Origin: Pelagicoccus sp. SDUM812003
GTDB lineage: Bacteria > Verrucomicrobiota > Verrucomicrobiia > Opitutales > Opitutaceae
Length of the DNA stretch: 64,000 nt
Assembly: GCF_031127815.1 (NCBI RefSeq)
Contig: NZ_JARXHY010000009.1
Span: forward strand, 62,001-126,000
Direction of reading: 5' to 3'
The position numbers were made by a program, and so were the translations under genes. Shown here piece by piece: positions 41,314 to 63,615 of this stretch; position 1 is the first letter of the stretch; each line of letters begins with the position of its first letter. The notes below the pieces were generated by a model. It ran no database searches, had not been told where the DNA came from, and saw only the letters and a list, made by a program, of their open reading frames with translations.

Positions 41314-41718
41314 TTAGCCTTCAGTCGCTAGGTTGACAGTGTTGGCTCCCGCCAACTTGCATTCATCGTGCACGCGGGTGTACAAATCGATGGATACGCT
41401 CTTATCGGCCTGGATGATGACCGGCATCTGCTCTTTGGAAACGAGCTGACGCACAACCGAGCGCACTCCCGATATGCCAACTTCCTTGCCGCCGTAGACG
41501 ACCTTCCCCTTGTCCGTAATGGCAATCAGGATACTGTTTTTCTCCAAATCGGCTGCCGATGCGGCTTGTGGCTTGTTCACCTCGACTCCGGTTTCCTCCA
41601 CGAACACCGTGGTGACGATGAAGAAGATGAGGAGGATAAAAACCATGTCGATCAGCGGAGAGATGTTGATCTCGTCGCTTTCGGCTTCGCCTTCCAATAT
41701 TGAACGTCTCGCTTTCAT
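41314..41718 (-). CDS. exbD: ExbD/TolR-family proton-channel subunit
   Basis: 134 residues. One transmembrane helix carries the functional aspartate ([23 protein letters not shown]), followed by the periplasmic domain ([22 protein letters not shown]). This is the ExbD partner for the ExbB-type proteins encoded next. Typical length and no irregularities. Confidence 0.93.
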
Positions 41719-43739: not shown

Positions 43740-44519
43740 TTAGGGTGTAACAATCTTGGTAGGGAGCCCCACGAAACTCGCGTCGGTACTGCGATCGTAG
43801 ACCGCGACCAACTGAGCTACATCCTCGGAGAGGGACGGATCTGAAACCCAGTCCCATCCCGAACCAGTTGGGTATCCGTATCCTGCATACTCACCGGTTC
43901 CGTCGATGAAGTAGGCATAGCTAAATCCATAGTAGAGCGTCGTCACCTCGCGCGACTCGCCGTCGACGTCCTGCACCGCGGTGTCCTTGGTGATGGCGGA
44001 CTGGAACTTGTCGAACTGGGACAGGATCGCCACCACGTTCTGCAGGCGAATGGTCAGGGGAGCATCCTCCGCCTTTTCTTCTTCCGGAATACGATCCAGG
44101 AAGGTATCCACCGTATCCAAAAACGCCACGGGCCAGCCTTCGGCCATCTTCTTCACGCGGGTTTCGTATTCTAAAACGGCGGCTTTCATTTCGGCGGTGA
44201 CGGCGTCGAGGACTTCCTTCTTCTCGTCAAGCTCAGCACGTTTCTTCTCGCCAGCCGAAGCGTTTTCCTTCGCCGAAGCGATCGCTTCCTCGAGGCGACC
44301 AATCTCGCCTTTCATAAATTCAATTGAATTCTGAAGCACTTCCTTCTGAGCGATCCATTCGCTCTTGTCTTCAGAGATTTGCTTTTCGACCGAGATCCAC
44401 TCGCTCAATGCGTTCTGCGTCTGCTTCACAGTGTCCGCGCTTAGCGAATACACGGCGGCAGGAAAGATAGCTGCAAAGAGGGCGGCTTTCAGGTGTTGTT
44501 TTCCGGAGGGAGATTTCAT
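43740..44519 (-). CDS. DUF3450 exported coiled-coil protein
   Basis: 259 residues: a signal peptide, a heptad-rich coiled coil (ISEDKSEWIAQKEVLQNSIEFMKGEIGRLEEAIASAKENA) and a C-terminal domain with YYGFSYAYFIDGTGEYAGYG. This is the DUF3450 family, which precedes TtpC-exbB-exbD-tonB-TPR in Vibrio-like gene clusters; the order is the same here. Role unknown, probably part of the energising complex. Confidence 0.8.
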   Translation of the reverse strand: MKSPSGKQHLKAALFAAIFPAAVYSLSADTVKQTQNALSEWISVEKQISEDKSEWIAQKEVLQNSIEFMKGEIGRLEEAIASAKENASAGEKKRAELDEKKEVLDAVTAEMKAAVLEYETRVKKMAEGWPVAFLDTVDTFLDRIPEEEKAEDAPLTIRLQNVVAILSQFDKFQSAITKDTAVQDVDGESREVTTLYYGFSYAYFIDGTGEYAGYGYPTGSGWDWVSDPSLSEDVAQLVAVYDRSTDASFVGLPTKIVTP

Positions 44520-47350: not shown

Positions 47351-47832
47351 AGGTTTGAGTTTTGCTTAAAACCAAAACCCCTTGAGCAGTTAGGATGCCA
47401 ACAACCCAGCTTCTAAGTTCAATTAGACAATTTACGAAGTTTCGCCGAGCCCCGCTAGGTAGTTCGCATGCGTCAAAACAGGCAGAGCGACGCGACCGCG
47501 AGCCCAGCTCCCAGAAGCGTATCACTAATTTCAATACATCGACTCGACGGAACAAGGACGACCTGACGCAGCACTATTATAAAGGGACTCGATCCACACC
47601 GACCGGGGCTCCAACCAGCGTTGAAGCATCGCTCCGAAAGGCTTCTCCGAACGAGCAGGTTCGAATCGCGGAAAGATCAAAATCGAGCAACGAAAGCGAG
47701 ACGGAACTAATCACTTCCACCTAACATTTGCGCCGAGCGCAAAGAAGTCGTCCTCTTCCGAAAATGTGGCGCATGCGATGCTAGCGGCCACGCAGGGCGG
47801 CACCCGCTGTCGCCTCGTACCAAGATGTCTAG
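47341..47832. other. Divergent regulatory region between two outer-membrane barrels
   Basis: 492 bp between divergently transcribed genes. A palindrome TTTGCGC-CGA-GCGCAAA lies at 47727-47743 and a start-box-like AAGATGTCTAG at 47824-47832. No complete open frame or RNA gene is apparent. Promoters for both genes probably lie here. Confidence 0.5.
47727..47743. promoter_or_regulatory. Palindrome upstream of the plug-less barrel gene
   Basis: TTTGCGC-CGA-GCGCAAA is a perfect 7-bp inverted repeat 90 bp before the start codon, a candidate operator or leader hairpin. Confidence 0.35.
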
Positions 47833-50265
47833 ATGAAGCTTTTCCAACGCATTCCTCACGCGGTGGCGGGAACGGCTATTGCGTGTTGCGTCCATGCAGC
47901 CGATAGCCCGATCCAGCTCAACGCCAAACCCGCCCTCAAGAACCAGACCGCGACGCAGCAAAGCGCCGCTCGCTCTCTCGGAGCAGACGAAACCAACTCG
48001 AGTCCACGCGAGCGTGGACGGATCCTGGTGAAACGAAATCCGATCGCTTCGGAGTATCAGGTTTTTGGTGACTTAGGCTCTAGCCCCGGCGCTGACGCGG
48101 ACGCAGAAGGGGTGGACTACAGAGCGTATTTTCCCACCCACAATCCCCTGGATCGCTCGTCGGCGTCCTTCACGGTCGGGGCCAGCTTGAACTACAACAA
48201 CCTCTCCGGAATCGCCGAACCGGGAGCGGAGTTGAGCTTCACGAAACCTCTCTCCGATCGCTGGACGCTCTCCGCCCAGTTTCGCAGCAACGCGTCCGAT
48301 CGCTTGATCGAACACTACGAAGCCGTGTGGAAGCCCTACTTCAGCGACAGCTCCGATCCGCTCTTCCAATTGGATAGACCTCGCTACTCCTTCGACTCCA
48401 TCTTCACCCGCAACCAAGTGGGAGCGCTGCAGATCGGCCACCAGCTCACCGAAAACCACGCCATCTATTTCAAGACCTACTATCAGGACTACTTCGACAA
48501 CTCCTACCGAAACCGCATCGAATACCAGGTGGCGGCGGGCGTTATCGACCCGAGCAGCATCGATGCGAAAGAGGACGGCTCGATCATCAAAGCGGACGTG
48601 ACAAACGCCCGCACGCGACGCTACTTCGGAGACACCGACAATACGCGCAGCCGCCAGCACACCACGTTCGGAGGAAGCTACGAGGGATCGGTTTGGAATG
48701 TCGACTACTCCGTCTACTCCCAGAAATGGGACCTGGATCGAACGTGGTACAACTGGAACTTCAACGACACTGGAGTCGATCTCAGCTACGATGCCAGCTC
48801 CATCTATTTCCCGATAGTGGAAAGCAGCAACCTCGACCCAACGAATCAGGAAACAGCCCGTTTCTCCAGCGTGCGTATCCATGATAACGCTACACGAGAC
48901 CGAGATCTAGTAGGCCGCATCGACGCCGAGCGGCGCCTCGAGATCGGCGAGCGCGCCTACTGGATACAAACCGGCCTGCTTTGGCGACAGAAGGAACGGG
49001 CCGTCCGGGAGGGAAGAGACGTCTTCACCGCCGATTCCACAAACCCTTTCAACCTCGATCAAGTCGCTTACGACCAACCCGCTGGCACCATCCTCGATGG
49101 CCGATATGAGTTGCAAAGCGGACTCGATCCACTCAAGGGTCGCCAACTCATCGCAAGCAACCCCGAGCTTTTCGCCTTCAGCTCCTACCGCTCCGAACTC
49201 GAATCCCTCCCCCAGGCCTACGATGCCGAAGAAACCGTCACTTCGAGCTACATCCTAGGACTCACCCAGATCGACGACTGGAGCATCGAAGCAGGCCTCC
49301 GGTACGAGCGCACGGAAACCGCCACTCGAGGGACGAACTCGATCCCGGAGGCGGTCAACGATCCCGATGAAGGCGCCTTCCTCAAAGAGCTGATCGATCC
49401 GAACAACGGAGACGTTTACGTCATAAAAGATCTGTATTCGGGAAACTCGTACGACAATCTCCTTCCCTCCGTCGAGATCGGGAAGGAGCTTTCGAGAGAA
49501 TCCTCGATCAAAGCCTCCTACTTCCAGCTTCTGATGCGTCCACAGTACTTCAACATCGTAGACTACCGCCGCATCAGCGTCCCCACCCAGAGCATATCCG
49601 AGGGCAACCCTCTGCTTCAGCCGACCCTGATCGACAACTTTCGGCTCGCATGGACCATCGAAAACGAGCGCATCGGCGCGTTTTCCGCGGAAGCCTACTT
49701 GATCGAAATTGAAAACTTCTTCTACGGTGCCGTATCCACCGAGAGCATACTCGAAAACGGAGACGCGAAGGACTACCGCGTAAGCCGCGTGGAAAACGGC
49801 GATTCCGGAACCATCAAAGGCTTGCAGCTCCAATGGAAGAAGTCACTGCAAGGACCGCTCTTCTACGAGAAAGGCGACCTGAGCTTGGCCTACACCTACT
49901 CGGATTCCGAAGCTCAAGTCGCTACCCGTTCCGAGAGCATGCTCGTTCCGGAGCGGTCCGAGCACTTGCTGAAAGCGACCTTCAGCGGATCAGTCGGAAA
50001 GCTCAGAAACGATCTCACCGTCACCTACCAAAGCGCCGCCCTGGACGACGTAGGAACCAACGAGGAGGAAGACGTCTACCGCAAGGCCTTCATCACGACT
50101 TCGCTCAACACCAGCTACCAGCTAAGCGATGGCCGGTCGCTCTACCTAAGGCTTTCGAACCTCACCAACCATCCGGAACGCTCCTTCGAAAACTCGCCCT
50201 ACCGCGTAAGCAGAAACCAATACAGCTCCTGGATCGGCGTCTTCGGATTTCGCCAACGCTTCTAG
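47833..50265 (+). CDS. TonB-receptor-like outer-membrane barrel without a recognisable plug
   Basis: 810 residues with a signal peptide (MKLFQRIPHAVAGTAIACCVHA). From about residue 90 the sequence is a barrel of alternating strands (LNYNNLSGIAEPGAELSFTKPLSDRWTLSAQFRSN...) with receptor-type motifs YERTETATRG, LLPSVEIGKELSRESSIKASYFQLLMRPQY and a final aromatic residue (GVFGFRQRF). Before the barrel there are only about 65 disordered-looking residues, with no plug domain and no TonB box that I can see, whereas normal receptors have 120-150 residues there. The function could be an ungated porin or a partner of another receptor. The next gene, an MFS transporter, starts 29 bp on. Confidence 0.75.
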   Translation: MKLFQRIPHAVAGTAIACCVHAADSPIQLNAKPALKNQTATQQSAARSLGADETNSSPRERGRILVKRNPIASEYQVFGDLGSSPGADADAEGVDYRAYFPTHNPLDRSSASFTVGASLNYNNLSGIAEPGAELSFTKPLSDRWTLSAQFRSNASDRLIEHYEAVWKPYFSDSSDPLFQLDRPRYSFDSIFTRNQVGALQIGHQLTENHAIYFKTYYQDYFDNSYRNRIEYQVAAGVIDPSSIDAKEDGSIIKADVTNARTRRYFGDTDNTRSRQHTTFGGSYEGSVWNVDYSVYSQKWDLDRTWYNWNFNDTGVDLSYDASSIYFPIVESSNLDPTNQETARFSSVRIHDNATRDRDLVGRIDAERRLEIGERAYWIQTGLLWRQKERAVREGRDVFTADSTNPFNLDQVAYDQPAGTILDGRYELQSGLDPLKGRQLIASNPELFAFSSYRSELESLPQAYDAEETVTSSYILGLTQIDDWSIEAGLRYERTETATRGTNSIPEAVNDPDEGAFLKELIDPNNGDVYVIKDLYSGNSYDNLLPSVEIGKELSRESSIKASYFQLLMRPQYFNIVDYRRISVPTQSISEGNPLLQPTLIDNFRLAWTIENERIGAFSAEAYLIEIENFFYGAVSTESILENGDAKDYRVSRVENGDSGTIKGLQLQWKKSLQGPLFYEKGDLSLAYTYSDSEAQVATRSESMLVPERSEHLLKATFSGSVGKLRNDLTVTYQSAALDDVGTNEEEDVYRKAFITTSLNTSYQLSDGRSLYLRLSNLTNHPERSFENSPYRVSRNQYSSWIGVFGFRQRF

Positions 50266-50294: not shown

Positions 50295-51608
50295 ATGCAA
50301 TCCACCGCTTCCACTTTCAGCCCTCCGCCGCTGACAAGCGACACCGCCTCGATGAGCTCGACTAGCCAACTCCCTTCAGCGTCCCCCTCGAATGGCAAGG
50401 AGCTGCGGGTTTGGCTAACCCTGTTCCTAGTTACGCTCATCTCCTCCTCGCAAAGCTCCTTCTCCATCATCGGGCTTCCCATGCATGCGAAGTCGATCGG
50501 GTTCAGCGCCTCCCAGCTCAGCTTGCTGCTGGGGGCATTTCCGTTTTGCGCCGCTGTGTCAGCCATCGTAAACGGACCCGTATCCGATTTCTATGGACGC
50601 AAGCGCGCCCTTCTGCTCGGTCTCATCTCCCTAGGGATCACCCTTTCGCTCCACCCCTTCGCAACCACCTTCGAGACCCTGCTTTTCCTGCGAGCATGCG
50701 CCGGCTTTTCCGCCGGTCTGCTTACCGGGCTTCCTTCGCTTCTCTTGAGCGACTCCTTTGGCCGCGAGCGTCAGCAACCGCTTATCGGACGCAGCCTTTC
50801 GGGCTACGCCATCGGACAAACCATCGCCATACCGCTCGGCATCGCCTTGATCGACCTAAGTGGCTACCTCGCTCTCAACGCCTATCTCGGAATCCTCGCT
50901 CTAGTCTTGGCGCCCTTCGCGCGGCAGTTGCTTCCCTCCGCCACTCATCGGTATCAATCGCCCAACTACAGTTTCAAACGCTACGGGCAGGAGACCAAGA
51001 CGCTCTTTCGCAACAAGCGCTTCCGCGGCCTTATCGCCACCAGCGGGATCAGTTTCGTAGCGACCTCGCTGTTCTACGTCACATTCGCTCAATGGCTTTT
51101 CGACGATGCCGGACTTCGGCCCTACCAGATCGCGCCCATGTACATCCTCGCAGGCTTAGCCCAAGTCTTCGCCCTCGCCTACATGAGCCAGCGCAACGCC
51201 AGCAGGGCTCCCGAAAAGAACGCAGCGATCTCCTTTCTGGTCAACGCGGTCCTCTTCTCGCTTTTCCTCATCGCCTTTCACGACCTGCGCTGGGCCGCCT
51301 TCCTCTTCGCCCTCTCTCTGGGCGCCATCGCCCTACGGATCCCGTCGATCCACCACCTGCTCAACCTTTCCGGCCCAGACACGCTGAAAGGGCTGCGAAT
51401 GAGCATGGCTCAAAGCTGCAACCACCTTGGTCGAGCGATCGGCGTCTCCTTTGCGAGCTTGCTCTTCCCCGTCGTCTCCGCGGATTTGCTGATGCTGGCC
51501 GCGGGTTTGGCCCTGCTGCCAAGCGCGGCATTTTTCGCTCTGAGCCGGCCCATCGACGGAGCCGAGGAAAAATCCAGCCCAGAGTACGCCGCGAAACTGG
51601 AAAAGTAG
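50295..51608 (+). CDS. MFS transporter (downstream of the plug-less barrel)
   Basis: About 437 residues from the ATG at 50295; a later ATG at 50352 would also preserve the membrane part. Twelve helices and the loop motif GPVSDFYGRKRALLLG between helices 2 and 3 place it in the drug/sugar-type major facilitator superfamily. It would carry substrates over the inner membrane after passage through the barrel, making an outer/inner membrane pair. Substrate unknown. Confidence 0.85.
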   Translation: MQSTASTFSPPPLTSDTASMSSTSQLPSASPSNGKELRVWLTLFLVTLISSSQSSFSIIGLPMHAKSIGFSASQLSLLLGAFPFCAAVSAIVNGPVSDFYGRKRALLLGLISLGITLSLHPFATTFETLLFLRACAGFSAGLLTGLPSLLLSDSFGRERQQPLIGRSLSGYAIGQTIAIPLGIALIDLSGYLALNAYLGILALVLAPFARQLLPSATHRYQSPNYSFKRYGQETKTLFRNKRFRGLIATSGISFVATSLFYVTFAQWLFDDAGLRPYQIAPMYILAGLAQVFALAYMSQRNASRAPEKNAAISFLVNAVLFSLFLIAFHDLRWAAFLFALSLGAIALRIPSIHHLLNLSGPDTLKGLRMSMAQSCNHLGRAIGVSFASLLFPVVSADLLMLAAGLALLPSAAFFALSRPIDGAEEKSSPEYAAKLEK

Positions 51609-51916: not shown

Positions 51917-53044
51917 CTAGGCGAACACCTCCCTCATGGCTTCCTCGTACGCCGCCATCTCCTGCACCGTGCCGATGCTGATGCGACACCAGTCGTCGTA
52001 AGGGGGGAAGGGACGGCCTACCAGAAACCCCTTTTCCTTCATCAAGGCTTGAAACGCCCGGATTTCGATACCGGTGCGATGGAAAACGAAGTTTCCGACC
52101 GACGGCGTATAGGCCAGGTCAAGATCCTCCAGCAGCGAGCAGAACCGCTCCCGCCCTTGACGAATCAGGCGACGCGACTCCTCATGAAACCGCTCGTCGT
52201 CCAGACTCGTGATGGCCGACATCACCCCTAGATAGCCAAGGCTCGACATGCGCCGCTCTTCCAGCGCCTCCAGCAGATCCGGGCGCCCCAGAGCGTAGCC
52301 CACTCGATGTCCCGCCAAGCCATGCATCTTGGAAAACGACCGCCCGATGATAACCGGGTAGCCTTCCTTCACCAGAGCCGTTTGGGTCTGCTGCCTGTAG
52401 TCGTCGAGCAGCTCCAGATAGACTTCATCCAAAAACACCGGGCAATGTTCCGAAGCCTGGATACAAAAGGAACGTATTTCGCTAGGTGGCAAAACGGTGC
52501 CGCTAGGGGTGTCCGGATTGCAGACGTAGACCAGATCGGCCTCTTGCTCGTGGACCGCTTTCAACATCGCCGACAAATCATGATGCATGCTCTCGCTGTG
52601 CGGGACCCACTCCACGCGCGCCCCGTTTTTCTCCGCATAGTGCATCAGTTGAAGATAGGTAGGCTGCGTCGCCACCAAGGTCGCGCCCGGCTTTCCGTAG
52701 ACGTCCCCCGCCATGGAGAGAATCTCGTCGCAACCGTTGCCCAATAGAACGTTGTCAGGATCCACACCTTCCAACTCCGCGATGCGCTCCTTCAGAATAA
52801 CCTCCTCGCGAAATGGGTAGCGGCAGCTGTTGGAAACCTCCTTCATGATGGTCAAGGTGACGCGACGCGAAGGCCCGAAGGGATTTTCGTTTCCCGCGAG
52901 GTTTATGTATTTTAGCTCTGGATACCGTGCGATGCGTTCCGCAGCCGCATCCACAGCCTGCCCCATCACCCGAGAGCTCAAACCCAACCCAAGGGTACCG
53001 AGCCCCACTTGCTTCAACCATTGGCGACGCGTCTTATTCCTCAT
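51917..53044 (-). CDS. Tat-exported HisC-like PLP aminotransferase, copy 2
   Basis: 375 residues with a classical twin-arginine signal (KTRRQWLKQVGLGTLGLGLSSRVMGQA). The fold-type I core shows NPDTPSG (a variant of NPNNPTG), LDEVYLEL and GRSFSKMHGLAGHRVGYA with the PLP lysine at residue 239. A Tat signal suits an enzyme that must fold with PLP before export. Related to histidinol-phosphate aminotransferases, substrate unknown. It lies downstream of copy 3 on the same strand, 95 bp away, possibly in one transcript. The Pseudomonas enzyme PvdN is a known example of a Tat-exported PLP enzyme. Confidence 0.88.
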   Translation of the reverse strand: MRNKTRRQWLKQVGLGTLGLGLSSRVMGQAVDAAAERIARYPELKYINLAGNENPFGPSRRVTLTIMKEVSNSCRYPFREEVILKERIAELEGVDPDNVLLGNGCDEILSMAGDVYGKPGATLVATQPTYLQLMHYAEKNGARVEWVPHSESMHHDLSAMLKAVHEQEADLVYVCNPDTPSGTVLPPSEIRSFCIQASEHCPVFLDEVYLELLDDYRQQTQTALVKEGYPVIIGRSFSKMHGLAGHRVGYALGRPDLLEALEERRMSSLGYLGVMSAITSLDDERFHEESRRLIRQGRERFCSLLEDLDLAYTPSVGNFVFHRTGIEIRAFQALMKEKGFLVGRPFPPYDDWCRISIGTVQEMAAYEEAMREVFA

Positions 53045-53139: not shown

Positions 53140-54291
53140 TTAGATCTTGCCCTGCGAACGCATGACGCTTTCGAAAACGCTGAGGAAGGTGGACATTTCC
53201 TCTTCGGTCCCGATGCTCACCCGGCACCAATCGAGCATCGGCGGGAACGGTCGACCCACCAGCACTTGCTCAGCTTCCATCATTTCCTGGAATTTCTCGA
53301 TCGGGATCCCGGTCTTCATGAAAACGAAGCTTCCTTGCGGCTCAGCGTACTCCACGCCGAGCTCGTCGAGCTTGTCGGTCACCATTTTGCGCACCGTGCG
53401 GTAGCTGTTTACGCTTTCCTCGAAGAACATCGTGTCCTGCAAGGACGCCACACCGGCGACGCAACCGAGCTTGTTCGGTCCGCCCATGCTGAACTTGCGC
53501 AGCTTGGACTTCGTATCAGGCTTCATGATACCGTATCCAACACGCAAACCCGCCATGCCATAAACCTTGGAAAACGTGCGGGCGAGAATGATGTTCTCAC
53601 CTTCACGGACCAAGCCAATCATGCTGTTCTTTTCCAAGCCGCCGTCGGCGAGCTCGAGGTAGGCTTCGTCGACGAAGGCTACGATATCCTCGGGCAGCTC
53701 CTTGATGAAGCTTTTCAAAGCATCCGGATCGACCGTGGTTCCAGTCGGATTGTTCGGATTGCAAAGGTAGACCATCACCGTGTCCTCATCGATGGCCCCC
53801 TTGAGCGCTTCGAGATCGTACTCCAGCTTGTCGTTCAACGGCACGGTCTTCACATCGCCGCCAAACGCCTCAAAGGTCCTAACAAGCTGCGTGTATCCAG
53901 GCTCCACTGACACGACATTCTTTCCGGGCGCAGCGTAGGCCATCGCCGCCATCTGCAGCACCGGTCCCGAGCCGGCTGTCGGTACCACGTAGTCGGCTGG
54001 CACGAGCTCGCGAGCTGCAATCGCATCGATGAGGGCCTTGGTCTCCTCCCAAGCGTACCGATTGATATCGGGCAGCTCCTGCATGATAGCCATCATGGCC
54101 ATCTGGGAGTAACCGAAGGCGTTTTCGTTTCCATTGATCTTGATAGGGCCGCGATCGCCCGCGTCATCGTCAACTTCGTGCTGGGCAAAGCTTACGTGAG
54201 GCGCTGCAGCCAGAGTCGCCGCTACGAAAAGCGACGCGAGTTTTGAGAACGGGCGGAGGCCCGATTCATTCGAATCCAGTTTTGTAGACAT
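53140..54291 (-). CDS. Exported HisC-like PLP aminotransferase, copy 3
   Basis: 383 residues from the ATG in the start box AAAAAGATGTCTAC at 54291. The N-terminal signal (SKLASLFVAATLAAAPHVSFAQ) looks Sec-type, unlike copy 2. NPNNPTG, VDEAYLEL and ARTFSKVYGMAGLRVGYG with the PLP lysine at residue 242 are intact. It is closer in motif spelling to copy 1 than to copy 2. It diverges from the amine oxidase operon across a 253-bp region, and both genes carry the start box. Confidence 0.88.
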   Translation of the reverse strand: MSTKLDSNESGLRPFSKLASLFVAATLAAAPHVSFAQHEVDDDAGDRGPIKINGNENAFGYSQMAMMAIMQELPDINRYAWEETKALIDAIAARELVPADYVVPTAGSGPVLQMAAMAYAAPGKNVVSVEPGYTQLVRTFEAFGGDVKTVPLNDKLEYDLEALKGAIDEDTVMVYLCNPNNPTGTTVDPDALKSFIKELPEDIVAFVDEAYLELADGGLEKNSMIGLVREGENIILARTFSKVYGMAGLRVGYGIMKPDTKSKLRKFSMGGPNKLGCVAGVASLQDTMFFEESVNSYRTVRKMVTDKLDELGVEYAEPQGSFVFMKTGIPIEKFQEMMEAEQVLVGRPFPPMLDWCRVSIGTEEEMSTFLSVFESVMRSQGKI

Positions 54292-54300: not shown

Positions 54301-54544
54301 ACTTTCGTTTGGTTTAGACGAGGGCTCTTGAAAGCATAGGCCGTGCCCATTTCGGTTTTTGTTCCAAATAATCACTACACGAGCTCCGTTCCCATTTATA
54401 TAAAGTTGCAAAACGGGCCAATCGCTCAGCGCTCCCTGCATCAACGACTGATACGCATCCCTAAAATCGCAAATTGTTCTAGATCGGCACGACGTTTGCT
54501 GAACGACATCGAACGACGCCCAGCGCGTCATTTCACACAAAAAG
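54292..54544. promoter_or_regulatory. Divergent promoter region of aminotransferase 3 and the amine-oxidation operon
   Basis: 253 bp with the same start box at both ends in opposite orientation. An AT-rich stretch (ATTTATATAAAGTTG near 54395) is a likely promoter core. No coding potential is seen. Confidence 0.5.
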
Positions 54545-54554
54545 ATGTCTAAAC
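54535..54554 (+). promoter_or_regulatory. Start box of the amine-oxidation operon
   Basis: ACACAAAAAGATGTCTAAAC, identical over 20 bases to the receptor gene's start box at 47331-47350 (minus strand). Confidence 0.6.
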
Positions 54555-56119
54555 CAGAAAAACTCACTCGCCGGAACTTCATCCGGCAAGTCGGAGCGTA
54601 CGGCGGCTGTGCCTTCACCACATTGACCGCGCTTGGCCTGCTCACCCAAGCCACCGGATTCGGTGCCGATCTTTCCGATTTGCCCCACATTGGAAACAAG
54701 TCCAAGAAGCGCGTCCTCATACTAGGGGCGGGCATCGCCGGACTCACCACCGCCTACGAGCTCGGAAAGCTGGGCTTCGACTGCGTGATACTCGAGCCCC
54801 GAGCCAAAGCGGGTGGACGAAGCATCACGATCCGTCGGGGCGACAAGATTACGGAAACCAACGGGTACTCCCAAACCTGCGCGTTCGACGAGGGGCTCTA
54901 CTACAACCCGGGCCCCTCCCGCTTTCCGCAATGGCACGTCACCATGGACTACTGCCGCGAGCTGGGCGTGGAGATCGAGCCGTTCGTGAACCTCAACGAA
55001 AACGCGTTCTACTACAGCGAGGGGGACGTTGGTCCGCTCGCTGGCAAGCGCACGCGTATCCGTGAAGTCAAGACAGACCTTAGGGGCTATACCGCCGAAC
55101 TGCTGGCTAAGGTGGCCGAGCAGGACAAGCTCGATCAGGAGCTTTCAGCCGAAGACAAGGAAGCGCTGCTGGACTTTCTCCACTATGAAGGCGGCTTGAA
55201 TCGATCCCATGAATACACCGGCCACAATCGCCGCGGCTACAAGGTATGGCCGGGCGGCGGCCTGCAGGAGGGCGAGATGGACGACCCCTACCAACTCTCC
55301 GAACTGCTTCAGTCGGGATTCGGCAACCTCTTTCATCGGGCCAACGAGTACCAGTATCAGTCCCAAATGTTCACGCCCAAGGGCGGCATGGACAAGATCC
55401 CGATGGCCTTGGCCGAAAAGCTGAAAGGCAAAATCGTCTACGGAGCCCAAGTGAAGGAGATCCGCCGAACAGATCCTGGCTCGCGCATCGTCTACTCCCA
55501 CCAGGGAGAGGACAAGGAGCTCACCGGCGATTTCTGCGTTTGCACCATCCCACCGACCATCCTGCGGAAGCTGCAAACGGACTTTTCGCCGATGCTTAAA
55601 AATACGCTCAACATCGTTCCGTTCCAGAACTCCGGAAAGATCGGCATGCAATTCAAACGGCGCTTCTGGGAGGAGGACGATCGCGTCTTCGGCGGAATCA
55701 CCTGGACGAATCTTCCCGTCGCCGAAGTTTGGTATCCATCAAATGGATTCCTAGGCAGCAAAGGCGTCATGGGCGGCTACTACACCTTCGGCCCTGTATC
55801 GGATCAGCTGGGAAAGATGTCGCCCGAAGAGCGAACCGAGTTCGCCTTATCCTACGGGGAAAAGATCCATCCCCAATACCGCGAGGAATTCGAAAACGCC
55901 GTCTCCATCAACTGGGCCACACTTCCACACATAGAGGGCTGCCTCGCCCACTTCCCCCAGGCCATGCTCAAGACCTTCTACCCACTTCTCATAAAACCGG
56001 AAGGCGAACTGTACATAGCTGCCAGCTGGGCCTCCCACCTAGGAGGCTGGCAGGCTGGGGCCTTCGAAGCCGCAAGATTGACAACCAAGAGCATCCATGA
56101 ACGCGCAATGGCCTCCTAA
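54545..56119 (+). CDS. Tat-exported flavin amine oxidase
   Basis: 524 residues with a twin-arginine signal (LTRRNFIRQVGAYGGCAFTTLTALGL). The FAD-binding motif is at about residue 57 (VLILGAGIAGLTTAYELGKLG) with the amine-oxidase follow-on PRAKAGGRSITIRRG, and the C-terminus has the family end ELYIAASWASHLGGWQAGAFEAA. Relatives oxidise mono- or polyamines or L-amino acids. In the Pseudomonas enzyme NicA2 such an exported flavoenzyme passes electrons to a cytochrome c; here a cytochrome c gene overlaps the end of this one by 23 bp, supporting a dehydrogenase rather than an oxygen-using oxidase. Confidence 0.9.
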   Translation: MSKPEKLTRRNFIRQVGAYGGCAFTTLTALGLLTQATGFGADLSDLPHIGNKSKKRVLILGAGIAGLTTAYELGKLGFDCVILEPRAKAGGRSITIRRGDKITETNGYSQTCAFDEGLYYNPGPSRFPQWHVTMDYCRELGVEIEPFVNLNENAFYYSEGDVGPLAGKRTRIREVKTDLRGYTAELLAKVAEQDKLDQELSAEDKEALLDFLHYEGGLNRSHEYTGHNRRGYKVWPGGGLQEGEMDDPYQLSELLQSGFGNLFHRANEYQYQSQMFTPKGGMDKIPMALAEKLKGKIVYGAQVKEIRRTDPGSRIVYSHQGEDKELTGDFCVCTIPPTILRKLQTDFSPMLKNTLNIVPFQNSGKIGMQFKRRFWEEDDRVFGGITWTNLPVAEVWYPSNGFLGSKGVMGGYYTFGPVSDQLGKMSPEERTEFALSYGEKIHPQYREEFENAVSINWATLPHIEGCLAHFPQAMLKTFYPLLIKPEGELYIAASWASHLGGWQAGAFEAARLTTKSIHERAMAS

Positions 56120-56477
56120 GCGCCTCGCAGGCGCCTTGGGAGCCGCGTTCGCTTCGAGCCTGCTCCTTGGCGTCCTTGAGGCGGAAGACTCCCCTACTCT
56201 AAACGCGGAGCTCGTCGAGAAAGGACGGGCTTCCTACGCCATGTTCTGCCAGGCCTGCCACGGTCCGGAGGATCCGACCATCGATTCTCCAAGCAACCTC
56301 TTCGACCTGAAGTGGCACCACGGCGACGGCAGCGTCGAAAACATAGAAAAGAGCATCCGCGACGGAATCGTCGAAAAAGGCATGCCCGCATGGGGCCAAA
56401 TGATTTCCGACGAGGAAATCAACGCCCTCCTCCAATACCTGAACAGCTTTCAAACGAAAGAAACCGCTTCCAAATGA
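56097..56477 (+). CDS. Single-haem cytochrome c, electron acceptor candidate
   Basis: 126 residues with a signal peptide (AGALGAAFASSLLLGVLEAE). One haem site, Cys51-x-x-Cys54-His55 in FCQACHGPED, and Met96 in KGMPAWG as the likely sixth ligand. It overlaps the amine oxidase by 23 bp and the Amt gene by 4 bp, so the three are likely translated from one message. The role is probably to receive electrons from the flavoenzyme and pass them to the respiratory chain. Confidence 0.9.
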   Translation: MNAQWPPKRLAGALGAAFASSLLLGVLEAEDSPTLNAELVEKGRASYAMFCQACHGPEDPTIDSPSNLFDLKWHHGDGSVENIEKSIRDGIVEKGMPAWGQMISDEEINALLQYLNSFQTKETASK

Positions 56478-57835
56478 ACCGCACCTTTCCCCGCCTGAAA
56501 TCCATCCTTCTCGTCGTGCTGACGGCGCTCGCTGTCAGCTCCGTATTCGATGCCACACTACTCGCTCAGCACAGAGTGACTGAAGGGGCCTACGACGAAT
56601 ACATCGACACGATCACCGCCGAGGAATCCTTCTTCACCATCAGCAATCTCTGGCTCCTCGTCTGCGCCGCCATGGTCTTCATGATGCACCTGGGCTTCGC
56701 CACGCTCGAATCCGGCCTCACGCGCTCGAAGAACACCATCAACATCCTCTTCAAGAACCTGTTCGTCATTAGCAGCGGGCTGCTGCTTTTCGCTCTATTC
56801 GGGTTCAGAACCATGTATCCAGGATATGAATTCAACGGATTCGCCAGCTTCGGTTTCTGGATCGGAGTGAATCCGGAGGACTACCTGGACCTGATGAGCG
56901 CCAAATACGCCAACTACAGCTGGTGGACGGACTTCATCTTTCAAGCAATGTTCGCCGCCACCGCCGCCACCATCGTCTCCGGAGCCGTGGCCGAACGCGT
57001 GAAGCTCAGCAGCTTCATGGTCTTCACCGTGTTGATCGTCGGTTTCGCCTACCCGGTAGCGGGCTCCTGGGAATGGGGAGCAGGTTGGCTGGATCGCAAC
57101 GGCTTTCACGACTTCGCCGGCTCCTCCATCGTTCACTCCTTCGGCGGATTCGCCGCTCTCGCCTGCGTACTCATCCTCGGACCGCGCATTGGAAAATACG
57201 GAGCGGACGGCTCGAACCGTCCTATCCTCGGCCACAGCATGCCCTTGGCGGCCATCGGCGTCTTTCTCCTTTGGTTCGGCTGGTTCGGCTTCAACGGGGG
57301 CTCGGTGCTCAGCGCCCATCCGGAAATGACCGGACTAGTCGTGACCAATACCGCCCTGGCCGGAGCAGCGGGATGCTTGAGCTGCATGATGGTGACTCAA
57401 ATCATGCTCAAGAAACCGGATATCTCCATGGGTCTAAACGGCGTGCTGGCGGGCCTGGTGGGCATCACCGCAGGAGCTGATTCCATGATGCCCGCTCCCG
57501 CCGTCCTGGTCGGAGCGATCGCCGGAGCCCTGGTGGTGGTTTCCATACTCTTCTTTGACAAGCTGAAGATCGACGATCCGGTAGGCGCCATTTCCGTTCA
57601 CGGGGTATGCGGCATGTGGGGCACGCTCGCTGTGGGCATTTTCGGTGAAGCGACCTTTCTATGGCAGCTCATCGGCTCCCTATCCTACGCGCTATTCGCC
57701 TTCATTTTCTCCTTCATCGTCTTCTATCTTATCAAGCTGGTCATGGGAGTCCGCGTGAGCGCGGAGGAGGAATCGATCGGGCTGGACATCTCCGAGCACG
57801 GCCAGGAAGCCTACGCCACGGACAATCGATCCTAA
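56474..57835 (+). CDS. amt: Ammonium transporter (Amt family)
   Basis: 453 residues with a start that overlaps the cytochrome stop (ATGA). A signal peptide (RLKSILLVVLTALAVSSVFDATLLAQ) precedes about 11 transmembrane helices. The conserved pore histidines are in DFAGSSIVHSFGG and DDPVGAISVHGVCGMWGT. It carries ammonium inward. Its position inside the operon suggests it collects ammonium released outside the cytoplasm. No glnK is adjacent, although GlnK is usual beside amt. Confidence 0.95.
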   Translation: MNRTFPRLKSILLVVLTALAVSSVFDATLLAQHRVTEGAYDEYIDTITAEESFFTISNLWLLVCAAMVFMMHLGFATLESGLTRSKNTINILFKNLFVISSGLLLFALFGFRTMYPGYEFNGFASFGFWIGVNPEDYLDLMSAKYANYSWWTDFIFQAMFAATAATIVSGAVAERVKLSSFMVFTVLIVGFAYPVAGSWEWGAGWLDRNGFHDFAGSSIVHSFGGFAALACVLILGPRIGKYGADGSNRPILGHSMPLAAIGVFLLWFGWFGFNGGSVLSAHPEMTGLVVTNTALAGAAGCLSCMMVTQIMLKKPDISMGLNGVLAGLVGITAGADSMMPAPAVLVGAIAGALVVVSILFFDKLKIDDPVGAISVHGVCGMWGTLAVGIFGEATFLWQLIGSLSYALFAFIFSFIVFYLIKLVMGVRVSAEEESIGLDISEHGQEAYATDNRS

Positions 57836-57853
57836 GAGATTACGGTATCCAGA

Positions 57854-59284
57854 ATGAAGATACTTCCAAATCACAAGCTCAGATACGTTCTCGGCATCCT
57901 TGGTACGGCAGTGGCTTGCTACGGCGGCCTGCACGTCATCGGCCACCAGACCAATGATCGTATCCACTCCTACGAGACAGACGAGCTACCGTACGCCGAC
58001 GCGGTGGAGGTCGCTCCGGGGTCAGAGTACTTCTTCACCTGGGGCGTCACTGCGAGTCCTCGGATGAAGGAGATCGCAAAGAATAGCGTCGAAAACCGGT
58101 ATGGCGACACCTACCAGCAATCCTACGCCGTGCTCACGCAACTGACGCAGGACCTGGCGGAGGTCGGTTTGACGCTCCGCGACGTGGCCAATGTGCGCGC
58201 GTACATCGTGGCGGACCCGGAAGCGGATTTCGATGGCTGGAACCGGGCGTTCTCCGAGTTCTTCGGCACCCTCACCAACCCGCACAAGCCCGCTCGCACC
58301 ACGGTTGGCATCGCTCGTCTTTTCCATTCCGACTATCGCGTGGAAGTGGAGTTCACTTGCGTCTTTCCAGATGGACGCGGCCCCAACGTGGCGGGATCTC
58401 GTCAGCACGAACGCTACACGCGCCTTAGCCGCACCGAGACCAGCGATCGCTGGAAATCCTACGGCCGTCCCGCTTGGCCAATGAGCACGGGAAAGGCGAC
58501 CGAGGGCTCCACCGGGCTTTTCTTCTCTTCTTCGGTGCGTCCCCAGTCCATGATCCCGAACGCTCCTCCCGGATTCCATATGTACGGAAACATCACCCAG
58601 CAGTCCGATTCCCTGTTCAAGCAAATGTCGGAACAGCTGAAGCTAGCAGGGCTCGGCTTCGAAGACGTCTTTTTCATGAGAGCCTGCGTGTATCCAGGAA
58701 AGGACTCCATAGGAAAGAGTTTCGCTGCCTTCAATTCCGAGTACTCCAAGTACTTCAACAACAGCCAAAACCCAAACCGGCCCACGCGTACCGTGATGTC
58801 CACCCCTGGCTACAACTATCGAAACCAGAACATTTCCATTGAATACTATGCTGCGTATCCAGAAATTGATGCCACCACCTTTGAGTCAGCAACCGCTTCC
58901 TTCGGCAGCTCGCCTTCCGTGATGGACAATCAGCCGATCGCATCGGCGGGAAAAGCCGTCTCCCCCGACGCTTCCATTCTTTTTCTGGCAGGCAGCATAT
59001 CTTCCGTGGAAGGGAGCATGAAGGAGCAAGTGGCGTCCGCCATGGATTCGCTGTCATCCCGTCTGGACAGGGCTGGAGCGAGCCTGGAGGACGTTTTTCA
59101 GCTTCGTGCCTACATAACCACCTCCGATTCGAAATCCTTGGATAAGCGTATCCAAACATGGGAGACAATGTTCAAGCAATACTTCAAGACCGACCACGCC
59201 CCTGCCTTGACCACCCTGCCCGTGGAGTCGATCGTCGGAGGCGGTCTCATCGAAATCGAAGCGAGCGCCGCCATCATGCGCTAG
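57854..59284 (+). CDS. Membrane-anchored or exported triple-RidA protein
   Basis: 476 residues. The N-terminal hydrophobic segment (LRYVLGILGTAVACYGGLHVIG) is a membrane anchor or signal. Three RidA-like domains follow at about 45-175, 205-335 and 345-476. Each domain has a LEDVFQLRAY-type helix start (LRDVANVRAYI, FEDVFFMRACV, LEDVFQLRAYI). The imine-hydrolysing Arg is seen in domain 1 (PARTTVG) and domain 2 (PTRTVMS) but is replaced by Leu in domain 3 (APALTTLP). It is the second such triple protein in the window and again lies beside an exported FAD oxidase gene. Confidence 0.82.
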   Translation: MKILPNHKLRYVLGILGTAVACYGGLHVIGHQTNDRIHSYETDELPYADAVEVAPGSEYFFTWGVTASPRMKEIAKNSVENRYGDTYQQSYAVLTQLTQDLAEVGLTLRDVANVRAYIVADPEADFDGWNRAFSEFFGTLTNPHKPARTTVGIARLFHSDYRVEVEFTCVFPDGRGPNVAGSRQHERYTRLSRTETSDRWKSYGRPAWPMSTGKATEGSTGLFFSSSVRPQSMIPNAPPGFHMYGNITQQSDSLFKQMSEQLKLAGLGFEDVFFMRACVYPGKDSIGKSFAAFNSEYSKYFNNSQNPNRPTRTVMSTPGYNYRNQNISIEYYAAYPEIDATTFESATASFGSSPSVMDNQPIASAGKAVSPDASILFLAGSISSVEGSMKEQVASAMDSLSSRLDRAGASLEDVFQLRAYITTSDSKSLDKRIQTWETMFKQYFKTDHAPALTTLPVESIVGGGLIEIEASAAIMR

Positions 59285-59324
59285 GGAGGCCAGAAGACCG
59301 AACGCAGCGCAAACGGATATCGGG

Positions 59325-60737
59325 ATGGCAAAATCGCTTCTGAGCACGATGACCATAGGGGGACGCTCGCTTCCTGGAGATGAGCGCTTTGAAGTGATCG
59401 ATCCAGCGACGGGGGAAGCCTTCGCCAACGCTCCCATCTGCCACCGCAGCGATCTAGAGGAAGCCATCGGCTCCGCCCAAAAAGCGTTCAAGCACTGGGC
59501 CACCTCGGAAAACCTGCGGCGCAACGCGCTGCTGTCCTGCGCGGAGCGCATCGGCGAAATAGAGGAGCAGCTCGCCATGACCATCACGCGCGAGCAGGGC
59601 AAGCCACTGGCCGAGGCTCGCAGCGAGGTCCGCTACGCCCAAAGCGTCCTGGAGGAGTACGCCAAGATGCCGCTTCCCGGTTCGGTGCTCGGCCAGAACG
59701 AACGCTCACGCACGGTGCTCATCCACAAGCCTTTTGGCGTAGTGGGGCTGATCACGCCCTGGAACTTTCCGATCGGAACCGCGGTGGTGAAGCTGGCCCC
59801 GGCCTTGCTCGCCGGAAACTGCGTGATACTCAAGCCGTCTCCCTACGCTCCGCTTTCCCCTCTGCTGCTTGGCAAGGCGCTGCGCAAGACGCTCCCCGCT
59901 GGCGTGCTCAACACCGTGTCAGGTGGCGACGAACTGGGATCCCTTATCTCCCGCCACCCTGCGATTCGAAAACTCTCCGTCACCGGCTCCGTATCAACCG
60001 GGCAATGCGTGCTGAAAGATTCCGCCGAGGAGCTCAAGTCCGTGACCTTGGAACTCGGAGGCAACGACCCCGCGATCCTGCTTCCGGACGCGCCTGTGGG
60101 ATCCATCGCGTCCTCGCTGCTCGACGCGGCGTGGAGAAACGCCGGCCAGGTCTGCAGCGCCATCAAACGCGTCTACGTGCACGAGACGAAACAGAGAGAG
60201 CTTATACAGGCTCTCTGCAAGGAGGCCATTCGATTCAAGGTGGGAAACGGACTGGATGCGTCCACGCGTATTGGTCCTCTCACTACGCATGACCAGCAGA
60301 GAAAGGCTCAGCACCTGTCGTCCCTAGTGGAGTCCTCCTGCGGAACCCTGCTTTGCGAAAAGCTTCCTCCACTCGACGGTGGCTACTTCTTCCCGCCATC
60401 CATCGCCACCGGCCTGCCTCAAGACCACCCCCTGGTTCAGGAAGAGCAGTTCTCGCCCATCCTGCCGATCGTAGCCTACCAGACGCTCGATCAAGCCATC
60501 GAATGGTCGAACGAGACAAATTTCGGCCTATCCGCTTCCATCTGGACCTCGAACCCAAAACTTGGATACGACATCGCCACCCAACTTGAATGTGGACGAG
60601 TGGGCATCAACGGACACAGGCGAGCGGACATCTCCGCGCCCTTCGGTGGAGTGAAGCATTCTGGACTGGGGCGCGAGCTTGGGGAGTGGGGCCTGCTTGG
60701 CATGTGCGAGTCGCAGGTCATCAACGTGTTTTCCTGA
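59325..60737 (+). CDS. Aldehyde dehydrogenase (NAD(P)+-dependent, succinate-semialdehyde type)
   Basis: 470 residues without a signal peptide, so cytoplasmic. Motifs: TPWNFPIG, TLELGGNDPAILL with catalytic Glu243, and NAGQVCSAIKR with catalytic Cys277. It resembles the GabD/succinate-semialdehyde dehydrogenase type. It probably oxidises the aldehyde made from amines in the periplasm after uptake. It follows the triple-RidA gene by 40 bp, and a terminator comes next, so it closes the operon. Confidence 0.93.
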   Translation: MAKSLLSTMTIGGRSLPGDERFEVIDPATGEAFANAPICHRSDLEEAIGSAQKAFKHWATSENLRRNALLSCAERIGEIEEQLAMTITREQGKPLAEARSEVRYAQSVLEEYAKMPLPGSVLGQNERSRTVLIHKPFGVVGLITPWNFPIGTAVVKLAPALLAGNCVILKPSPYAPLSPLLLGKALRKTLPAGVLNTVSGGDELGSLISRHPAIRKLSVTGSVSTGQCVLKDSAEELKSVTLELGGNDPAILLPDAPVGSIASSLLDAAWRNAGQVCSAIKRVYVHETKQRELIQALCKEAIRFKVGNGLDASTRIGPLTTHDQQRKAQHLSSLVESSCGTLLCEKLPPLDGGYFFPPSIATGLPQDHPLVQEEQFSPILPIVAYQTLDQAIEWSNETNFGLSASIWTSNPKLGYDIATQLECGRVGINGHRRADISAPFGGVKHSGLGRELGEWGLLGMCESQVINVFS

Positions 60738-61877: not shown

Positions 61878-61897
61878 CACCAAAAAGATGTCTAACT
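61878..61897 (+). promoter_or_regulatory. Start box of the gamma-glutamyltransferase gene
   Basis: CACCAAAAAGATGTCTAACT around the start codon, matching the shared box AAAAAGATGTCTA. Confidence 0.55.
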
Positions 61898-63615
61898 ATT
61901 CACGCCTTATTCAAATCGGGGCGGCGGCTACCGCATTGTGCTCGCTTTCCATCGCCGCGCCGGAACCTCCCATCTACAACAGCGAAGCGACGCGGCACCC
62001 GGAAACCGGATTGCAGGGCATGGTTTCCTCCCGCGAGAAACGAGCCAGCGAAGCAGCGCTCGAAGTTCTGAAAAACGGCGGCAATGCCGTGGACGCCGCC
62101 GTCACGCTTGCGTTCGCCATGGCGGTCACCACCCCTCAAGCGGGAAACATCGGCGGAGGGGGGTTCATGATGATCCATTCCGCGGATACAAACGCCACCG
62201 TTGCGCTGGACTATCGCGAGAAGGCTCCGCTCGCCGCGACACGCGACATGTACCTCGGCCCCGACGGGGAGGTGGACAAAGAGCTATCCCGCTACAGTCA
62301 TCTTTCAGCCGGAGTGCCAGGCACGGTGGCCGGACTCTCCGCGGCCTTGGAAAAATACGGTACGATTTCTCTGGCCGAAGCAATCCAGCCAGCGATCAAA
62401 CTCGCTCGGAATGGCTTTCCGGTGAACGAGGATCTCTACCAATCGCTTAAAACAGGGAAGGAACGCGTGGAAAAGCACGCCCCGCACGCTCTCGCCTACT
62501 TCTACGACGACGAAGGCGTCCCTTTCCCACCCGGCCACCTGATTTCGATTCCCGAACTGGCGGATACGCTGGAGCTGATCGCGAAAGAAGGACCCGACGC
62601 CTTCTACAAGGGAGCGATCGCGGACCTGATCGTTTCCGATATGGAAAAGCATGGCGGAATCATCACCCATGAGGATCTCGCCCGCTATGAACCCGTATTC
62701 AGAAATCCGGTACGCGGCACCTACAAAGGCTACGAAATCGTATCCATGCCTCCGCCCAGCTCGGGCGGCGCCCATATCGTACAGATTCTGAATATTCTGG
62801 AGCCCCTCGACCTGCATAGCAAAGGCCACAACAGCGCCGCCTCCATCCATTTGATGGCGGAAGCCATGAAATACGCCTACGCTGACCGATCCAAGCACCT
62901 TGGCGACAGCGATTTCAACCCGGTCCCGCTGGAGTGGATCACCTCAAAATCCTACGCCGACACCATTCGCGAAAAGATGAACCTCAACAGGGCCACACCA
63001 AGCGTGGACATACTCCCCGGCGAGCCGATTCATGAAGGGTTGGATACGACCCACTTCAGCGTGATGGATCGATATGGAAACGCGGTTTCGAACACCTATA
63101 CGATCAACTTCACCTTCGGTTCGAAAATCATGCCGCCCGGTACTGGGTTCTTTCTCAACAACGAGATGGATGACTTCTCGTCCAAGCCCGGCGTTCCGAA
63201 TGCCTACGGGCTGATCGGGGGCGAGTTCAACGCGATCGAAGCTGAAAAGCGCATGCTAAGTTCCATGTCGCCGACCATCGTGCTGAAAGACGGGACGCCG
63301 GTCCTGTTGACAGGTAGTCGGGGAGGCAGCCAGATCATCTCCGTTTCGCTTCAAGTGATCCTCAACGTGATCGAACACCAGATGAACATCGCTGAAGCCG
63401 TCGCCGCTCCTCGGATACACCACCAGTGGCTTCCCGATACGCTCGGGGTCGAGAAAGGAGTCAGCCCGGACACCATCGCCCTCCTCGAACAGATGGGCTA
63501 CGAGGTTCGACAAGGCCGAGCCATGGGCACGGCAAACTCCGTGACCTTTGAAGATGGGATCTTCTACGGGGGCTCCGATCCCAGGCGTCCGGACTCCACC
63601 GCGATCGGATACTAG
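61888..63615 (+). CDS. ggt: Gamma-glutamyltransferase (periplasmic)
   Basis: About 575 residues from the ATG at 61888 (MSNYSRLIQIGAAATALCSLSIAA is the signal peptide). GGTs are made as a proenzyme that cleaves itself before a Thr; here LDTTHFSVMD gives Thr387 as the new N-terminus of the small subunit. GNIGGGGFMMIHS and LSSMSPTIVLKDG...TGSRGGSQIIS are further family landmarks. It hydrolyses gamma-glutamyl compounds such as glutathione, freeing glutamate for the exported deaminating enzymes of this region. A strong hairpin follows. Confidence 0.94.
   Translation: MSNYSRLIQIGAAATALCSLSIAAPEPPIYNSEATRHPETGLQGMVSSREKRASEAALEVLKNGGNAVDAAVTLAFAMAVTTPQAGNIGGGGFMMIHSADTNATVALDYREKAPLAATRDMYLGPDGEVDKELSRYSHLSAGVPGTVAGLSAALEKYGTISLAEAIQPAIKLARNGFPVNEDLYQSLKTGKERVEKHAPHALAYFYDDEGVPFPPGHLISIPELADTLELIAKEGPDAFYKGAIADLIVSDMEKHGGIITHEDLARYEPVFRNPVRGTYKGYEIVSMPPPSSGGAHIVQILNILEPLDLHSKGHNSAASIHLMAEAMKYAYADRSKHLGDSDFNPVPLEWITSKSYADTIREKMNLNRATPSVDILPGEPIHEGLDTTHFSVMDRYGNAVSNTYTINFTFGSKIMPPGTGFFLNNEMDDFSSKPGVPNAYGLIGGEFNAIEAEKRMLSSMSPTIVLKDGTPVLLTGSRGGSQIISVSLQVILNVIEHQMNIAEAVAAPRIHHQWLPDTLGVEKGVSPDTIALLEQMGYEVRQGRAMGTANSVTFEDGIFYGGSDPRRPDSTAIGY

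Follow-up and report, generated by a model that had tools for sequence, protein, structure and literature searches.

A cluster of genes in Pelagicoccus sp. SDUM812003 (Verrucomicrobiota) appears to encode a periplasmic module that deaminates L-amino acids for nitrogen scavenging, probably under sigma-54 control. The cluster lies in a 64,000-nucleotide stretch of the 5.75 Mb genome, referred to here as the window, and is headed by a flavoenzyme gene. We hold this interpretation, which is read from the sequence, with moderate confidence; it builds on gene content, gene order, conservation, key residues, export motifs and common promoter-like sites, each observed directly. The unit is larger than the run of five genes singled out in an earlier note on this DNA: aminotransferases, a TonB system and common promoter-like sites belong alongside it.

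The flavoenzyme and its operon

The five genes follow one another on the + strand with spacings of -23, -4, +18 and +40 nt, which confirms the earlier description of a single direction with overlaps or gaps of at most 40 bp. They are:

54545..56119, + strand: flavin L-amino-acid oxidoreductase with a twin-arginine translocation (Tat) motif, similar to the RoLAAO enzyme introduced below (PF01593, E 2e-48; 2jae, E 6e-97)
56097..56477, + strand: cytochrome c with one haem motif and an N-terminal signal judged by inspection (PF13442, CBB3 type, E 1e-14)
56474..57835, + strand: Amt ammonium transporter (PF00909, E 5e-113)
57854..59284, + strand: triple Rid protein (3x-Rid) with an N-terminal helix, predicted imine deaminase (PF01042, E 7e-27)
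59325..60737, + strand: aldehyde dehydrogenase (ALDH), accessory and not core, varying among relatives (PF00171, E 1e-131)

By sequence, an L-amino-acid oxidase (LAAO) is the closest match to the flavoenzyme. Its nearest solved relative is 2jae (E 6e-97 over residues 52-521), the LAAO of Rhodococcus opacus (RoLAAO), an organism also named in PMC9331233, and in the same comparison with solved structures the monoamine and putrescine oxidases scored far lower. Four residues, R126, K365, Y413 and W502, are invariant across 14 flavoenzyme sequences, and the first three align with the Arg, Lys and Tyr of LAAOs, which surround the substrate carboxylate and the catalytic water as described in PMC9331233. 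With the closest similarity to an LAAO and the carboxylate-binding Arg and Tyr kept, the oxidation of amines, as which the earlier note had read the operon, is probably the wrong chemistry; the residues and the best solved match led us to reject an amine substrate in favour of an L-amino acid. The product would then probably be a 2-oxo (keto) acid, formed via a 2-imino acid, and not an aldehyde. With a 2-oxo acid as product ALDH is not the expected next step, whereas Rid and Amt fit as the steps that follow.

A twin-arginine motif, TRRNF, begins at residue 8 of the flavoenzyme, and the RR motif (a motif test only) is found near the N-terminus in all 17 members of the flavoenzyme clade defined below. 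The cytochrome contains a single CxxCH haem motif (CQACH) and a GMP Met motif. The open reading frame (ORF) listed for Amt begins earlier, at a GTG, and its ATG (56474) shares nucleotides with the stop codon of the cytochrome gene; the top NCBIfam model for this protein is TIGR03644, 'marine subtype', at 442 bits, under the cut-off of 514. This Amt is one of five in the genome, and so may serve this locus specifically. Like the earlier note, we infer that the enzyme is exported, that cytochrome c accepts its electrons, that the imine is hydrolysed and that the ammonium is captured.

The Rid protein consists of an N-terminal helix followed by three Rid repeats, as seen in the alignment and in an AlphaFold2 model (pLDDT 83.5). 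A Foldseek search with this model returned RidA folds, the top matches being single RidA-fold chains and chorismatases. The catalytic Arg is kept in repeat 1 (R148) and repeat 2 (R312), and the three repeats may form a covalent pseudo-trimer, as is presumed for 3x-RidA.

Conservation of a four-gene core

Part of the loci compared, among them those from Bacillota and Bacteroidota described below, came from a scan of genome contigs and are the best 80 of 537 relatives, a top slice and not a census. These loci are mutually related, and nine of the 80 (L066-L074) repeat contigs otherwise included and were dropped from the tree. One flavoenzyme clade comprises 17 genomes: the window genome, G001-G007, G015, G091, G109, G127, G141, G155, G307, L075 and L076. 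Flavoenzyme, cytochrome c, Amt and triple Rid keep their order and strand in 16 of these 17 genomes, and the cytochrome c gene lies beside the flavoenzyme gene in all of them; in the 17th, L075, the contig stops inside Amt. Among the clade genomes that carry the cluster, seven besides that of the window are labelled as the same genus. The search for the gene order in relatives, which the earlier note had called for, has therefore yielded a conserved core of four genes that does not include ALDH.

The ALDH gene could be judged in 15 of the 17 clade genomes (L075 and L076 being out of reach). A close homologue (57-61% identity) is present in all seven other members of the genus, a distant one (28-32% identity) in G015, on the opposite strand, and in G109, G141 and G307, and among the judgeable genomes none was found near the operon in G091, G127 and G155. 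We rejected ALDH as a core member, as its presence varies among relatives. Aldehyde oxidation as a step of the operon is not supported, the gene being absent in three of 15 genomes and distant in four more.

At a flavoenzyme threshold of E <= 1e-90, an even draw of 372 genomes from the order contained the enzyme in 17, 12 of them of this clade, and a survey of 387 genomes from the phylum contained it in 10, six of them of this clade. Outside the clade the surroundings differ. In G031, G297, G336 and G630 the flavoenzyme is accompanied by a Rid-profile ORF and by neither an Amt nor a cytochrome match, G010 has no Rid, Amt or cytochrome beside it, and G200 has a distant flavoenzyme together with a cytochrome-like ORF with two CxxCH motifs. 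In L168 (1026-3469), from another family of the same order, a distant protein of the amine-oxidase family adjoins a cytochrome-like ORF that also carries two CxxCH motifs; this locus falls outside the clade and is not counted among the 17.

Aminotransferases, TonB system and other neighbours

Three aminotransferase genes belong to the locus, two of them directly upstream of the flavoenzyme gene and divergent from it:

53140..54291, - strand: AT2, pyridoxal-phosphate (PLP) aminotransferase resembling PtaA and HisC, with a non-Tat N-terminal signal judged by inspection (PF00155, NF006580, NF051461)
51917..53044, - strand: AT1, PLP aminotransferase resembling PtaA and HisC, with a twin-arginine motif (profile matches, RR motif, conservation)
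38071..39210, - strand: AT3, third aminotransferase resembling PtaA and HisC, with an N-terminal signal judged by inspection (profile matches, conservation)

Scores against the PtaA model NF051461 are 179 bits for AT1, 221 for AT2 and 193 for AT3, all under the cut-off of 500, and those against NF006580 and TIGR01141 are likewise below their cut-offs. AT1 and AT2 both carry the PLP-Lys motif, and within its own genome AT2 has its closest paralogues in AT3 and AT1. The RR motif was found in 13 of 15 AT1 ORFs and in two of 19 AT2 ORFs of the clade. At least one aminotransferase with an export signal stands beside the module in 16 of the 17 genomes, and both AT1 and AT2 are adjacent in 15; in G307 an AT2-like gene lies 1.5 kb upstream on the same strand. 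AT2 and the flavoenzyme share a near-identical leader, (C)AAAAAGATGTCT, present as inverted copies at the ends of their common intergenic region (window 54280-54560).

Of the other neighbours, the first listed here lies downstream of the operon and the rest upstream of it:

61888..63615, + strand: gamma-glutamyltransferase (GGT; TIGR00066, over cut-off)
50352..51608, + strand, start approximate: major facilitator superfamily (MFS) transporter (PF07690; match in 11 of 14 relatives, 23-47% identity)
47833..50265, + strand: TonB-dependent outer-membrane receptor 2 (TIGR01782, E 4e-51, below cut-off)
44659..47340, - strand: TonB-dependent outer-membrane receptor 1 (PF00593, PF07715)
43740..44519, - strand: DUF3450 protein (PF11932)
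42336..43718, - strand: long proton channel protein of the ExbB/MotA type (PF01618)
41727..42332, - strand: ExbB (PF01618)
41314..41718, - strand: ExbD (PF02472; 91-94% identity within the genus)
40626..41300, - strand: protein at the place expected for TonB (conserved; no Pfam match at 0.001)
39264..40622, - strand: tetratricopeptide repeat (TPR) protein adjoining the ExbB/ExbD genes

All seven other genomes of the genus, and G015, have counterparts of the whole region between the receptors and AT3. G127 and G155 also match the receptors and ExbB/ExbD, and a separate upstream AT3 was not seen in either; G109 and G141 have a divergent receptor pair downstream of the operon, at which the stretch covered ends, and G307 has a receptor-2-like gene only. 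GGT lies downstream of ALDH in all eight genomes of the genus (about 3 kb away in G006) and, as a guess, could supply periplasmic glutamate.

Since synteny within a genus is weak evidence, we place weight on the genomes from outside the genus and on the limits of the conserved region. In none of 14 relatives did the three window genes past AT3 (33871-37901) or the gene between ALDH and GGT (60857-61633) have a match next to the cluster. Partial matches occur further left, for the gene at 32769 in six relatives and for a histidine kinase at 30302 in five. This control covers the genes within the fetched stretches, which begin at about 30 kb of the window and reach less far in relatives with short contigs. 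We rejected chance synteny as an explanation, since 16 of the 17 genomes keep order and strand and the conservation stops past AT3.

Elsewhere in the window, a second oxidoreductase/Rid-repeat pair was seen at 15243-16460 (- strand) and 16551-17861 (+ strand), with N-terminal signals on both proteins. Its Tat-signal protein resembles D-amino-acid oxidases in swapped order, with their C-terminal signature matched by its N-terminal part and their N-terminal FAD domain by its later part, so that it looks circularly permuted. This order is kept in six aligned relatives (three of them partial), each time beside a Rid-repeat gene; the AlphaFold2 model (pLDDT 50.6) is too poor for use.

Sigma-54-like promoter sites

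We scanned for -24/-12 sites with the consensus TGGCACGN4TTGCW, which has 12 scored positions; the GG and GC cores had to be intact and the threshold was 9/12. Four sites stand before genes of the locus:

54485..54500, + strand: -24/-12 site, 11/12, 44 nt before the flavoenzyme ATG
54333..54348, - strand: -24/-12 site, 10/12, 41 nt before AT2
47767..47782, + strand: -24/-12 site, 9/12, 50 nt before TonB receptor 2
47385..47400, - strand: -24/-12 site, 9/12, 44 nt before TonB receptor 1

The flavoenzyme site, at 9/12 or better with its cores, recurs in 15 of the 17 genomes (G155 reaches 8, and the GC core is missing in G091). Its distance from the start is 43-45 nt in the genus and in G015, and about 47-70 nt in the other genomes; in nine aligned upstream regions GGCA and TGCT are invariant and their surroundings weakly conserved. 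All 13 genomes that match receptor 1 have its site, which lies 38-47 nt ahead of the gene in the genus and in G015; in the other genomes, where the starts are estimates, the distance is 47-80 nt. For receptor 2 a site was found in all eight genus genomes and, near uncertain starts, in G015, G109, G141 and G307; none was found in G127, and G155 could not be judged. The AT2 site occurs in six of eight genus genomes, the other two reaching 8, as well as in G109, G127, G141 and G307, with G015 reaching 8.

As a control, six of the 43 window ORFs taken as genes have a site of at least 9/12 within 100 nt: four of them are the leaders named above, and the other two form the divergent oxidoreductase/Rid pair (15243-17861; 11 nt spacing). 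Under a Poisson model, six sites within 100 nt compare with 0.85 expected (P ~3e-4), and four at 41-50 nt with 0.1 expected (P ~4e-6), this spacing having been picked after the sites were seen. The genome encodes one RpoN, and the sigma-54 activator domain is matched 19 times in it. Elsewhere in this genome an amt gene that precedes a PII gene (L150, 1243-3130) carries an 11/12 site, which lies upstream only if amt starts at the ATG near 1306, and this fits a use of sigma-54 for nitrogen here; beyond the window there are three more amt loci, none of which showed a site at 10/12 or better. Scans of 53900-62000 for sigma-70 sites (one versus 2.3 expected) and for terminators (11 versus 8.1 expected) were uninformative.

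A proposed mechanism and what weighs against it

We propose the following series of steps. An amino-nitrogen compound would cross the outer membrane via the TonB receptors, and in the periplasm the Tat-exported flavoenzyme would oxidise L-amino acids and so produce 2-imino acids. The enzyme's family, its Tat motif and its gene pairing, together with the kinetics of analogous enzymes (PMC12224317), suggest that the electrons would pass to the partner cytochrome c rather than to oxygen. The membrane-anchored triple Rid would then hydrolyse the imine to a 2-oxo acid and ammonium, which Amt would take up into the cell. The exported PtaA-like aminotransferases AT1-AT3 may shuttle amino groups between amino acids and oxo acids, and would in this way widen the substrate range.

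A more ambitious version, which we offer tentatively and regard as possible rather than probable, is a periplasmic 'transdeamination'. Here the exported aminotransferases would pool the amino groups of many amino acids on one acceptor, the exported LAAO would re-oxidise that one amino acid into the respiratory chain, and the tethered 3x-Rid would free ammonium beside Amt, the whole being co-regulated by sigma-54 with its own TonB uptake.

Several points weigh against periplasmic L-amino-acid deamination under sigma-54 control. A substrate-pocket tryptophan of RoLAAO, Trp426 (in RoLAAO numbering, which is offset by one from the chain), corresponds to Leu467 in the flavoenzyme, and because of this change the specificity may differ from that of RoLAAO. 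The third Rid repeat has Leu452 in place of the catalytic Arg, and so perhaps only two Rid sites are active. Cytochrome c is a putative electron acceptor by analogy, and the non-Tat signals of AT2 and AT3 would make the supply of PLP hard to explain. The cluster has a narrow distribution (12 of the 372 genomes surveyed in the order), and G091 has neither aminotransferases nor receptors in the stretches covered, so that these are not essential. As for the promoters, sigma-54-like sites at 9/12 number 31 across the window against 29.9 by chance, only their placement being unusual; no convincing activator-binding dyad common to the two divergent promoter regions was found; and sigma-54 also controls genes unrelated to nitrogen.

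Alternative explanations

The aminotransferases might instead modify one imported or exported compound, with the oxidase module serving that compound and not free amino acids. PtaA acts in this manner on the side chain of the siderophore pyoverdine in the periplasm (PMC6206403), and the similarity of the aminotransferases to the PtaA model, if below cut-off, as well as the conserved TonB receptors at this locus and the TonB-type receptors in all three Bacteroidota loci checked, agree with such a role. We nevertheless think it unlikely, as Amt and Rid would suit a bulk release of ammonium better.

A function in iron acquisition is in our view very unlikely. Amino-acid deaminases of Proteus and Providencia yield iron-chelating 2-oxo acids, and oxidase and aminotransferases could likewise make such acids, which would re-enter via the TonB receptors. 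Two such receptors and ExbB/ExbD adjoin the cluster, receptor 1 weakly matches the siderophore-receptor model TIGR01783 (77 bits, cut-off 223.5), and the MFS protein weakly matches siderophore transporters among others. Amt and Rid would however be left without an explanation, and the common promoter-like sites are sigma-54-like (no Fur-box search was made).

An exported amine dehydrogenase resembling NicA2, with its aldehyde product oxidised by ALDH, is highly improbable. PF01593 does include amine oxidases, and an ALDH gene is near in 12 of the 15 judgeable genomes, on the same strand in 11, but among solved structures an LAAO matches best by far, the Arg and Tyr that bind the carboxylate are kept, and ALDH is missing from G091, G127 and G155 and only 28-32% identical in G015, G109, G141 and G307. 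Least probable of all is a role in signalling or antagonism through indole-3-pyruvate (towards auxin) or hydrogen peroxide: Gluconacetobacter lao mutants with lowered lao, cccA and ridA transcripts make no auxin from tryptophan (PMC5053998) and Chlamydomonas LAO1 is required for auxin from tryptophan (PMC10805672), but Amt, the TonB system and the sigma-54-like sites speak for uptake, and the cytochrome partner would speak against peroxide release.

Relation to described systems

The deamination module proposed here has its closest published counterpart, among those we found, in the lao-cccA-ridA operon of Gluconacetobacter diazotrophicus, which combines a Tat-signal LAAO of RoLAAO-like predicted structure, a cytochrome c and RidA; its authors suggest a periplasmic site and electron transfer to cytochrome c (PMC5053998). 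In the Pelagicoccus clade LAAO, cytochrome c and Rid are likewise co-directional, with Amt between the last two. Unlike the Gluconacetobacter operon, the Pelagicoccus locus has the inserted Amt, a Rid that is tripled and preceded by an N-terminal helix, and linked aminotransferases, TonB system and sigma-54-like sites. The likeness to GDI2456 is one of published description.

The Tat signal on the flavoenzyme and the adjacent cytochrome c gene also recall flavin amine oxidase (FAO) dehydrogenases of the NicA2/CycN type, and many Tat-FAOs with a neighbouring cytochrome c (CytC) were measured to prefer CytC (PMC12224317). That survey was seeded with NicA2, whereas the Pelagicoccus enzyme is of LAAO type, and the two are likened here by signal and gene neighbourhood. 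Rid genes are known to cluster with those of FAD amine oxidases, Salmonella RidA hydrolyses imines made by an LAAO, and the three Rid domains per chain are as in 3x-RidA, a presumed covalent trimer (PMC4433059). The Pelagicoccus protein differs from the published 3x-RidA in being predicted to be exported and membrane-anchored and in lacking the catalytic Arg in repeat 3. PtaA of Pseudomonas is a related PLP aminotransferase that acts outside the cytoplasm (PMC6206403); in contrast to it, the aminotransferases described here are three copies linked to an LAAO, two of them have non-Tat signals, and their scores lie below the cut-off of the PtaA model. LAO1/LAO2-RIDA of Chlamydomonas similarly pairs a periplasmic LAAO with a Rid partner to obtain nitrogen from amino acids, but is eukaryotic and peroxide-producing, and the available portion of that source describes no cytochrome partner (PMC10805672).

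The earlier note had regarded the arrangement as undescribed. This holds in part: lao-cccA-ridA, the pairing of Tat-FAO with CytC, the clusters of Rid with amine oxidase genes and 3x-RidA have all been published, and the added Amt was not found in the literature searched. Within the open-licence literature searched, in which all terms were never combined in one query, no report joined Amt, exported aminotransferases, a TonB system or sigma-54 to such a cluster. Nothing relevant turned up in that literature on an aminotransferase paired with an LAAO, on a periplasmic transaminase together with an amino acid oxidase, or on deamination combined with Amt, TonB and sigma-54. Periplasmic transdeamination is thus one potentially new idea, and one that is testable.

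Partial counterparts in Bacillota and Bacteroidota

Parts of the module recur in two other phyla among the best 80 of 537 loci. In Bacillota, a Rid-profile ORF follows the RR-motif LAAO in 43 of 43 loci, and 40 of these 43 Rid ORFs have a hydrophobic stretch within their first 60 residues; of the three that do not, two are over-extended ORFs. In Bacteroidota, 23 of 26 loci have an aminotransferase no more than 150 nt from the LAAO and on its strand; it precedes the LAAO in 22 of them and follows it in one (Pontibacter, L089). The RR motif is found in all 26 Bacteroidota LAAOs and in 24 of 25 aminotransferases, the exception being a truncated ORF. As for the remaining loci, in Rhodocytophaga (L139, 8992-19166) the LAAO is followed by a TonB-type receptor, a SusD-like protein and then, 6-7 kb downstream of the LAAO, two RR-motif aminotransferases. 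L125 is cut off 0.3 kb past the LAAO, and in L144 no aminotransferase is near. TonB-type receptors were seen in all three Bacteroidota loci checked (L081, L089, L139), and are weak evidence because such receptors are abundant in this phylum. A protein with a C-terminal Hint domain adjoins the aminotransferase/LAAO genes in the four Bacteroidota loci examined (L081, 10677-11669; L087, where the domain match is below the Pfam cut-off; L089; L139).

Implications

In the usual picture of amino-acid catabolism in bacteria, import precedes deamination. The locus described here suggests deamination outside the cytoplasm in some marine Verrucomicrobia, with the electrons kept for respiration, and it would extend the cytochrome-linked flavin oxidoreductases to L-amino acids. 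It also offers a direct genetic test of a role of exported PLP aminotransferases beyond pyoverdine tailoring. If the transdeamination idea is true, the nitrogen of amino acids would be mined outside the cytoplasm without import of the amino acids themselves, and the electrons would be conserved.

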